A stretch of 64,000 nt of DNA from an uncultured Algibacter sp. (GTDB lineage: Bacteria; Bacteroidota; Bacteroidia; Flavobacteriales; Flavobacteriaceae). The stretch's first letter is position 1. The number at the start of each line of letters is the position of its first letter. The position numbers and the translations under genes are program-made. The stretch lies in assembly GCA_947502405.1 (NCBI GenBank), contig CANMZT010000004.1:186001-250000 (forward strand), read 5' to 3'. Below the pieces are notes generated by a model, which did not search any database, had not been told where the DNA came from, and saw only the letters and a list, made by a program, of their open reading frames with translations. Shown one piece after another: positions 5,908-51,038 of the stretch.

Positions 5908-6009
5908 TTTGGGCGTTACCCGAAAAGGGTCGGGCTTTACGTTACAAGTCCTCGCTTCTGCGCTAGGGCGCAAAAGCTGTGGGCTTTCCTCTGCAATCCC
6001 TAACGCGGG
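5908..6009 (+). repeat. Dispersed structured intergenic element, copy A
   Basis: TTTGGGCGTTACCCGAAAAGGGTCGGGCTTTACGTTACAAGTCCTCG...GTGGGCTTTCCTCTGCAATCCCTAACGCGGG; homologous to copies B, C and D. Confidence 0.85.
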
Positions 6010-10139: not shown

Positions 10140-10247
10140 GCGTTAGGGATTGTAGTGGATAGCCCACAGCCCGATCCCGATAGCTATCGGGAGAGGTGCG
10201 AGGACTTGTAACGGAAAGCCCGACCCCTTTTCGGGGTAACGCCCAAA
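10140..10247 (-). repeat. Dispersed structured intergenic element, copy B
   Basis: Reverse complement TTTGGGCGTTACCCCGAAAAGGGGTCGGGCTTTCCGTTACAAGTCCTCG...CTGTGGGCTATCCACTACAATCCCTAACGC; central arm holds perfect palindrome CCCGATAGCTATCGGG. Confidence 0.87.
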
Positions 10248-25960: not shown

Positions 25961-26201
25961 TTTTATAGTATTCTGGTTTTCAAAGATAGCAAATTGAACC
26001 AGACTTTAGCGGCTACTCCTGATTGAAACGGCATCCTTTTTTGTGCTTATCTATTAATTTAAAAATAAGCTTATTGTTAAATGAGTTAAAACAAACTTGA
26101 TGAGATACTGAAACAAGTTCAGCACAATAAAGATATAGTGGAAAGCAGGAAGAAACTTAAGTTAATAAAGACCAGCGTTAGGGTTCAAATTTTTATTATT
26201 T

Positions 26202-31738: not shown

Positions 31739-31842
31739 CCCGCGTTAGGGATTGTAGTGGATAGCCCACAGGTTTGCCAATTTTTATTGGCGAACCGAGG
31801 ACTTGTAACGGAAAGCCCGACCCTTTTCGGGTAACGCCCAAA
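31739..31842 (-). repeat. Dispersed structured intergenic element, copy C
   Basis: Reverse complement TTTGGGCGTTACCCGAAAAGGGTCGGGCTTTCCGTTACAAGTCCTCGGTTCGCCAATAAAAATTGGCAAACCTGTGGGCTATCCACTACAATCCCTAACGCGGG. Confidence 0.87.
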
Positions 31843-45037: not shown

Positions 45038-45133
45038 TTTGGGCGTAACCCACAAGGGGTCGGGCTTTCCGTTACAAGTTTTGGCTCGATGCTCGCCTCG
45101 CCAAAAGCTATCCACTACAATCCCTTACGCGGG
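45038..45133 (+). repeat. Dispersed structured intergenic element, copy D (diverged, shorter)
   Basis: TTTGGGCGTAACCCACAAGGGGTCGGGCTTTCCGTTACAAGTTTTGGCTCGATGCTCGCCTCGCCAAAAGCTATCCACTACAATCCCTTACGCGGG. Confidence 0.85.
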
Positions 45134-48942: not shown

Positions 48943-50772
48943 TTAAAATTTAATTGTTGTTATTATTTGATAATTTCTATTTGGCATGGGCCGTAACGCC
49001 ACATTTTGATATTCTCTATCACGAAAATTATTTACTCTAAGATTAATATCATAGTGTACCTTTCCGTTTTTATTTATAAGACATCCAAAGCCTATATTAC
49101 CCACATTATAGCCACTTAACCTATCCCCTATAGTTAAAACTTCTCCATTAAATTGGTGTTGGTAAAACATAGAAAATACGGCATGACTATAAGCAACCGA
49201 TACATTTCCTTTATGAAACGGCACATAAATGAGTTGTTTTTTTGTCTCAATATTTTCTGAAACTGTATAGGAATAACGCCCGCTAAAACTAAGGTGATTT
49301 AATTTTAATTTAACCTTAGAAAACGCTTCTATTTCTGCACCATAACTCTGAGATTTAGCAACATTAATTGGCGTCCAATCCCCAGAATTATCAGGCCGCC
49401 ATTGTATTAAATCCTCAGTAGATATGTAATAGGTGTTTAATTTAAAATTAAAAGCTTTCAAGTTTAAAGTATGCCCTAAATCTAACTGATAAGACTGCTC
49501 AGGACTTAAATCCAAATTACCTCCTGGTTGCCAGTACAAATCATTAAATGTTGGAATTCTAAAGTTTTTAGAGGCATTAAATTGAATGGCGTATGTATTG
49601 GATACCTGATAAGCGCCATCTACCGAAAACAAAAACGGATTTTCAAAATCGGATGTAACATCCTTTCTAAGATTCAAATTATACTCAAAACGGTCTGTAG
49701 GCTTATGGTTCATTAATATTGTGGCAGAAAAAGCATTGCGTTTAGGATTCCCAAAACTACTGCCACCACCATCAAAATGGCTAAATTCTAAAATATTCCT
49801 AAACTGTAATGTATTTGATACCCGATAATTTAAATTATGGTTAAAAAGCCATGTATTTACCTTTCCAAAAGAAAAGAAATCGTTCACCTTATTTTCAAAA
49901 AACTTAAAACGTTCGTTAAGATGTACAACTTTTAATTTAGAACTAAACGCCCCGGAAATACGCGTCCACTCCAACATGGTTCTATAATTTTCATCCACAT
50001 ACTTACTGTTAGAAGGCGCTACCAAAGTACCCGAAAACTCCCTTTCACCATTATAACTTTGATGGTATAGTTTTAAAACATCTTTTTCAGATATAAAATA
50101 TCCTAAATTCAAATTGAAGTTTACATTGTTAAAAGCACCATTTTCATTCACCCTATCTGCTCCTAAATACTTATAGTCATTATCAGAATCTACATAGGCA
50201 AATCCTGCGTTTACAGTGAATTTTGAATTGCCGTAAGATGAAGACACATCGGTCATTCTTGTATCAAAACTGCCATATGCCAACCTAAGCTGTGTATCAA
50301 AATGAGGTTTAAATTCTAAATTATTATTCAAATGAATACTGCCACCAATGGCGCCGCTTCCGTATTGCACACTACCACCACCGCTTCGTATATCTATAGC
50401 ATCAAAATTGGTGGCGTTTATGGTATTAAAATCGGTTTGTCCGTTAAGTTGCGAATTAATGTTTATACCATTCCAAACCACAGCTGTTTGAGAGGCATTT
50501 GTACCTCTAAAAGAAGGAGATGAGACCATCCCAAAACCATTTTCCTTAAAATATAAGTTTGAATTAAACCCAAGTAATCCAGTAAGAGAAACAGAGTTTT
50601 TATTAATTATAGAATCATTAAGCTTTTCAACTTTAATTCCCGTAGTGTATTGCACTAATTTGGCATCACTTAAAACAATTTCATCTAATTTTTGGATAGC
50701 ATCTAGTTGTGCTTGAGCAAGATTGCAAAAACCTGTAGAAAATAATAATAGTGTAAAAATATTGTGTCTCAT
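48943..50772 (-). CDS. TonB-dependent receptor, BtuB-like
   Basis: Plug domain NSVSLTGLLGFNSNLYFKENGFGMVSSPSFRGTNASQTAVVWNGININSQLNGQTDFNTI; preceded by B12 riboswitch. Confidence 0.92.
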   Translation of the reverse strand: MRHNIFTLLLFSTGFCNLAQAQLDAIQKLDEIVLSDAKLVQYTTGIKVEKLNDSIINKNSVSLTGLLGFNSNLYFKENGFGMVSSPSFRGTNASQTAVVWNGININSQLNGQTDFNTINATNFDAIDIRSGGGSVQYGSGAIGGSIHLNNNLEFKPHFDTQLRLAYGSFDTRMTDVSSSYGNSKFTVNAGFAYVDSDNDYKYLGADRVNENGAFNNVNFNLNLGYFISEKDVLKLYHQSYNGEREFSGTLVAPSNSKYVDENYRTMLEWTRISGAFSSKLKVVHLNERFKFFENKVNDFFSFGKVNTWLFNHNLNYRVSNTLQFRNILEFSHFDGGGSSFGNPKRNAFSATILMNHKPTDRFEYNLNLRKDVTSDFENPFLFSVDGAYQVSNTYAIQFNASKNFRIPTFNDLYWQPGGNLDLSPEQSYQLDLGHTLNLKAFNFKLNTYYISTEDLIQWRPDNSGDWTPINVAKSQSYGAEIEAFSKVKLKLNHLSFSGRYSYTVSENIETKKQLIYVPFHKGNVSVAYSHAVFSMFYQHQFNGEVLTIGDRLSGYNVGNIGFGCLINKNGKVHYDINLRVNNFRDREYQNVALRPMPNRNYQIITTIKF

Positions 50773-50809
50773 AATCTGTAAAACCCTTTACCCGAGAGTT
50801 TCTATTAGA

Positions 50810-50985
50810 TGATGAAAATGGCAGGTCTCCTGACTTGCGTCTTCATGTTGGTCTTCCCATCAAATTGACAGTGACATAGAAGTATAACATGAAGCTTTAT
50901 AGCTTACAGTTGCGGGAACAGTTCTGGATTTTAACCAGATTCCCTTTTAATTCATTTCGAAAAAATCACGAAAGAAACCAAATTC
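50810..50985 (-). promoter_or_regulatory. Cobalamin riboswitch
   Basis: Minus strand GGGAATCTGG...CCCGCAACTGTAAGC...TGTCACTG...TGGGAAG...AAGACGCAAGTCAGGAGACCTGCC, the B12-box signature; outer boundaries approximate. Confidence 0.93.
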
Positions 50986-51038
50986 GAAACAAAAGTAAAC
51001 ATTATGTTTAATCTATTACTAAAAACATTTAATAATAT

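Follow-up and report, generated by a model that had tools for sequence, protein, structure and literature searches.

Four short intergenic sequences in a 64,000-nucleotide window of Algibacter DNA (the whole stretch analysed here) are, close to certainly, members of Flavo-1, the Rfam family RF01705 published in 2010 (PMC2864571), and comparison of the host genome with its congeners reveals a new property of this family: the base of the element stays at its site while the inner arm is often swapped. A sequence-only reading of the same DNA had described the four as a candidate undescribed element and had left it open whether they were a mobile element or an RNA fold; the family was already described, and the evidence now leans toward a repeat at the DNA level. 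We put the probability at roughly 0.55 that Flavo-1 behaves as an intergenic DNA repeat, non-autonomous and high in copy number, whose base keeps its site while its arms can be exchanged, rather than as one small RNA. The DNA reading is thus a little better than even, and the evidence for it is suggestive, not proof.

Identity and copy number

The coordinates and strands first reported for copies A (5908-6009, +), B (10140-10247, -), C (31739-31842, -), and D (45038-45133, +) are correct, although the strand modelled by Rfam is the opposite one; a cmscan search against Rfam matches all four copies to Flavo-1 on that opposite strand (A and D on -, B and C on +). The initial count of four proved too low, since a fifth copy, E, lies within the window at 26011-26156 (+). 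Copies E (52.7 bits, expect value 1.5e-8) and D (45.7 bits, 1.3e-6) exceed the Flavo-1 gathering score of 42 bits, while C (31.6 bits, 0.0095), A (31.1 bits, 0.013), and B (26.1 bits, 0.31) fall below it. On its own score B is not significant in Rfam; it shares with the other copies the base, the ends, and the outer stem P1 described below. Copies A, B, and C carry what we call a type I inner arm, with a CCCGATAGCTATCGGG palindrome at the tip in B, and D carries a type III arm; E is of the Rfam type, without the GCGTTA stem and with a long loop.

A covariance-model search of the host genome returned 89 Flavo-1 matches at E<=0.1, 37 of them above the cut-off. Simple patterns for the two ends occur 149 times (five-prime) and 161 times (three-prime) in the 3.79 Mb genome, against 0 to 1 for reversed controls, so that the repeat is present far above chance, at about 150-160 copies in this member of the Flavobacteriaceae. 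The view of these sequences as a dispersed repeat stands, but on a scale of some 150 genome copies, not four.

A three-way junction

The shared ends are as first written, TTTGGGCGTWACCC..GGGTCGGGCTTTMCGTTACAAGT at one end and ..CAATCCCTWACGC at the other, with A diverged (TTTCCTCTGCAATCCCTAACGC). They pair as proposed, GCGTTA with TAACGC in A, B, and C, and GCGTAA with TTACGC in D; the small hairpin is likewise ACCC-GAAAA-GGGT in A and C and ACCCC-GAAAA-GGGGT in B, and in D it reads ACCC-ACAAG-GGGT. Taken together, the Algibacter copies enlarge the Rfam model into a three-way junction composed of an outer stem (P1), a side hairpin (P3), and a long arm (P2). In copy A, i) the two arms of P1, GCGTTA at 5913-5918 (+) and TAACGC at 6001-6006 (+), are defined by sequence and covariation; ii) P3, ACCC-GAAAA-GGGT at 5918-5930 (+), is defined by sequence and pairing and is not in the Rfam model; and iii) P2, at 5932-6000 (-), has in the pair table a GGG/CCC base, an A.G mismatch, two 3x3 internal loops, and a variable tip. 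Read on the Rfam strand, the layout is GCGTTA (P1) - GGG-A-TW-GNA-GY-GGA... (P2) ... -GGA-WA-G-CCC - GACCC..GGGT (P3) - TAACGC (P1), and a P2 stem with the conserved base and internal loops is found across 75 copies, including A, B, C, and D. Flank profiles show an AT-rich element edge, AAATWATTAT.

The sub-threshold Rfam scores are explained in large part by the absence of P1 and P3 from the 76-position model; more generally, most copies fall below the curated cut-off because P1 and P3 lie outside the model and because there are several alternative P2 arms.

Three further features were seen in or near the elements. In several host copies the 5′ side of P2 has lost a part to a perfect palindrome, TCCCGATAGCTATCGGGA, which stands in its place (GTTAG-TCCCGATAGCTATCGGGA-GCAG; L036, L044, L067, L070, L081, L083-L085), and a different palindrome, CCTGCCGGCAGG, occupies similar places in genome G003. 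The terminal loops of many arms (L063, L066, L079, L082-L084) contain sequences resembling CGTC-tagged REPs (CAGATTGCCACGTCGCTCACTCCTCGCAATGACG). Finally, a companion block, GTTAAACGAACCTCTCCAAAAA, lies about 65 bases 5′ of P1 on the Rfam strand in 21 of 152 copy entries, some of them counted twice, against 1.6% of random stretches (examples are L049, L071, L076, and G008_C1a:338708), and may either belong to a longer element or represent a second repeat.

Arms are replaced at fixed sites

Comparison of the host with genome G008, a close relative, yielded 29 paired sites whose flanking genes are mostly 80-97% identical. At 12 of the 23 sites that could be parsed, the inner P2 arm resembled a paralogue more closely, by its score, than its own orthologue. 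For at least six of these 12 the base and the sequence directly to either side are clearly orthologous, among them C13:88484, where the inner arm scores 0.33, the left flank 0.96, and the right flank 1.00; at C4:321648 the two orthologues have the rare P1 GCATTA in common and their arms differ; and at the remaining five, either one or both flanks are themselves at the paralogue level or, as at C4:316277, a deletion of the arm in G008 led to a misreading of the site.

The site of copy D tells the same story across more species. The element is present at the same place in all congeners compared (9-10), and the rare P1 GCGTAA/TTACGC is retained in nearly all of ten species, being visible wherever the sequence is complete (G005 has TTATGC, and the G006 sequence is incomplete there); three unrelated P2 arms nevertheless alternate among the species at this one site. 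Comparable arm switching between species is seen at the site of copy A. The same D arm recurs in several independent genomes, making assembly error unlikely as the sole cause. Breakpoints of replacement vary from the tip only (C3:20477) up to the whole arm, the pattern expected from gene conversion or template switching. The differences among the first four copies, which the sequence-only reading had accounted for incompletely, are mainly differences between exchangeable inner-arm modules.

We suggest that copies persist for long periods at their sites while the P2 arm is repeatedly replaced from other copies; the simplest route for such exchange would be gene conversion, or template switching, among copies with the same short conserved base.

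Covariation and conserved mismatches

The proposal that the element is under structural constraint, with compensatory changes, is borne out: both P1 and P2 co-vary strongly. Among 75 copies, Watson-Crick pairs fill 367 of the 375 cells of P1 pairs 1-5, where TA has undergone double changes to CG and AT, and 223 of the 225 cells of P2a. In an R-scape-like test with a tree-based null, which is not strictly valid for recombining copies, five column pairs reached significance, of which four correspond to proposed pairs and the fifth is adjacent. Type I copies from other genera have perfect P1 in 76 of 91, with 13 different P1 sequences (GCGTT, GCGTG, GCGCA, GGGTT, GCATT, and others); shuffling of partners left perfect P1 in 23 copies on average and in 33 at most (1000 shuffles, n=91), and the result is not circular since these copies were selected by an exact P2 pattern, not by P1.

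Mismatched positions are conserved too. The A.G opposition is kept in 75/75 copies, and in the first 3x3 internal loop G.A is kept in 74/75 and A.G in 75/75. Such conservation of the A.G and GNA/GGA mismatches speaks for specific recognition, and we propose that a putative protein reads them.

The mismatches also bear on a different explanation of the covariation, namely that it is a mutational by-product: template switching during replication of an imperfect palindrome would rewrite one arm from the other, keeping stems perfect without selection for the fold. A single step of template switching can generate a perfect hairpin and can also maintain it (PMC8794818; PMC7202029), intermediates with G.U or with A.C are both scarce in our copies, and species-specific perfect palindromes have arisen within elements (TCCCGATAGCTATCGGGA in the host, CCTGCCGGCAGG in G003). 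Such a process should erase mismatches, however, yet the A.G and the G.A/A.G loop pairs persist in 74-75 of the 75, in orthologues and paralogues alike, and it leaves some 150 dispersed copies unexplained. We consider it very unlikely.

DNA repeat or structured RNA

The strongest competitor of the DNA reading is that Flavo-1 is a genuine structured RNA, whether an sRNA or a UTR cis element that stabilises or ends transcripts, and that it spread and was kept for its RNA fold. Rfam places Flavo-1 in its sRNA class, and Weinberg et al. judged it "probably" RNA (PMC2864571).

Orientation does not speak for RNA. Copies had been reported in both orientations and in all types of gap, and so they are: A and C lie between genes on the same strand (A between a tRNA pseudouridine synthase and a UvrD-type helicase, C between a lipocalin-like protein and a DEAD-box helicase), B lies in a convergent gap (FKBP isomerase and DUF4293), and D in a divergent one (sigma factor and S41 peptidase), all neighbors being ordinary genes named from Pfam. 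On the larger scale of 66 detected copies in about 2 Mb of three genomes, with genes from a simple ORF caller, there is no preference of orientation relative to genes, with 16 same and 20 opposite in tandem gaps, and 31 versus 30 relative to the upstream gene. Local GC skew matches the orientation of 28 of the 66 copies (p 0.27), giving no signal of replication-strand bias. The published transcriptome of F. psychrophilum (Guerin et al.) likewise lacks a strand preference, with Flavo-1 matches falling on the sense and the antisense side of transcripts without distinction, and often beyond their limits, although some transcribed 5′ regions do coincide with matches (PMC9723704). Random orientation relative to genes fits DNA, or a structure independent of strand, better than an sRNA.

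The pairs themselves point the same way. A stem kept as RNA on one strand should tolerate G.U much more readily than A.C, and we find no G.U excess: G.U and A.C occur in 6 and 4 of 455 cells in the 91 copies, and in roughly 11 and 6 by hand count in the 75, a difference that is not significant. Similar frequencies of G.U and A.C again fit DNA or a strand-independent structure better than an sRNA, but the avoidance of G.U is a weak test, as gene conversion among copies could remove the intermediates.

Predicted folding energies do not decide between DNA and RNA. Shuffled sequences fold somewhat less well than copies A, B, and C (z about -2 to -2.8), but the two strands of these copies fold about equally well, D does no better than shuffles on either strand (z 0.5 and 0.9), and DNA folding parameters yield the same z-scores.

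Two observations favor some involvement of transcripts. Where a gene 3′ end faces the element 3′ end, the stop codon of that next gene often lies within about 13 nt (n=35), and convergent gaps are in mild excess (15 observed versus 8.6 expected with the simple ORF caller, p 0.02), which would fit an RNA role at gene ends. A role of the element at gene ends is possible, and the stop codon may come from the AT-rich edge of the element. Internal loops of the GNA/GGA kind are also well-known motifs of RNA, and we count them against the DNA reading. On balance we regard the RNA explanation as rather unlikely.

In the DNA reading, a strand that is single-stranded, or extruded from the duplex, would fold into the P1/P3/P2 three-way junction. 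An extension of this reading, which we offer tentatively and hold to be doubtful, is that Flavo-1, one of the "small RNA" families of highest abundance in Rfam, consists not of RNA genes but of folded DNA repeats, a class extending across the phylum, with a stable base and exchangeable arms, which a putative dedicated enzyme recognises, and perhaps exchanges, at the three-way junction.

A cobalamin riboswitch also lies in the window, at 50803-50997 (-; 109.6 bits), upstream of the ORFs at 48943-50772.

Mobility

The element had also been called mobile and REP/MITE-like; its behavior is REP/MITE-like, whereas transposition is not proven by the present evidence. The B site is without the element in three congeners (G001, G005, and G009), and presence or absence of this kind, together with dispersal, implies that the element has spread; mobility of Flavo-1 is likely, and transposition may have occurred in the past. 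Comparison of orthologous sites had been suggested as a check on mobility, and gave one further empty site in the closest relative, where the difference of about 150 bp includes 5′ sequence; this single site could be a deletion. Judged as a MITE, the element has a P1 inverted repeat of only 5-6 bp, and we found no target-site duplication, linked transposase, or clean empty site. Nor was there an autonomous version, with a gene between half-elements, among the matches listed for both halves.

Flavo-1 might be a REP-like miniature transposon mobilised by a RAYT (a Y1/HUH transposase of IS200/IS605 type), for like REPs it is intergenic, structured, of high copy number, and patchy across taxa (PMC3733652). 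The sole Y1_Tnp match in the host, however, is inside a methyltransferase-like ORF and is not flanked in the manner of a REPtron; A. marinivivus (G002) and G005 are without Y1_Tnp yet have 70 and 31 Flavo-1 matches; and flank profiles show no GTAG tag at the element end. With the only host domain of this kind in a methyltransferase ORF, and two copy-rich congeners having none, we reject a RAYT-driven REP as the present cause, and consider the RAYT explanation as a whole to be highly improbable.

As an observation in its own right, the Y1_Tnp-like (HUH transposase) domain of locus L088 (G000:C22:30159-30461, -; 35.6 bits) is embedded in a methyltransferase-like restriction ORF of more than 1,000 aa, and similar long open frames occur in G001, G003, G004, and G006.

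Distribution and comparison with known systems

Each of the ten Algibacter genomes compared has 31-77 Flavo-1 matches. Beyond the genus the distribution is very patchy: 23 of 158 sampled Bacteroidota genomes have matches, from many to one each, whereas none of 14 control genomes has any. Copies of type I are further present in Flavobacterium, Chryseobacterium, Chitinophagaceae, Pelobium, and others, and matches below the cut-off lie on Bacteroides and Phocaeicola plasmids; a search of 50,697 phage records gave no Flavo-1 match. The plasmid type I elements (L376, L377, and L378) include one on the conjugative p5482 of B. thetaiotaomicron, and lie partly under an annotated "hypothetical protein".

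Integron attC sites are folded, with a variable terminal arm on a conserved base. We rejected them as a model for Flavo-1, in which the order of AAC and GTT boxes is reversed relative to attC R'' (RYYYAAC) ... R' (GTTRRRY), the GTT-side box coming first on both strands; orientation relative to genes is also random in Flavo-1, a difference from attC. Among other small repeats, BOX is modular (boxA-boxB-boxC). Pneumococcal BOX, RUP, and SPRITE resemble Flavo-1 in being small interspersed repeats but are unrelated in sequence and host, and in the parts of that account consulted we found no description of Flavo-1-style arm replacement at fixed sites (PMC3049150). REP/BIME and CGTC-tagged repeats are, like Flavo-1, short, palindromic, intergenic, patchy, and present in hundreds of copies, and the CGTC repeats are likewise without a dedicated transposase (PMC3733652); Flavo-1 differs from them in sequence, in forming a three-way junction rather than a single hairpin, and in having no GTAG or CGTC tag at its own end, although CGTC-like REPs (GTCATTGCGAGGAG..) are found within the P2 loops of many Flavo-1 copies. 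Closest of all is the Rfam family itself (Weinberg et al. 2010, PMC2864571), with which the Algibacter copies share the covariance model, the P2 base, the A.G mismatch, the symmetric internal loops, and residence in Bacteroidota, while adding P1 and P3 and carrying several alternative P2 arms.

Implications

Although Flavo-1 entered the catalogues in 2010, no function has been attached to it; a 2022 review counts it with the bacterial sRNA families of greatest abundance (PMC9029176), and our literature searches found no earlier account of it as a repeat. Adding P1 and P3 would complete the Rfam model and recover many copies that are now missed, and because arms are replaced while sites stay fixed, one can measure directly how short bacterial repeats evolve. 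We wish to stress, as a warning, that strong base-pair covariation can come from DNA repeats; if Flavo-1 is such a repeat, the "sRNA genes" listed under this name in many genome annotations are not genes at all.
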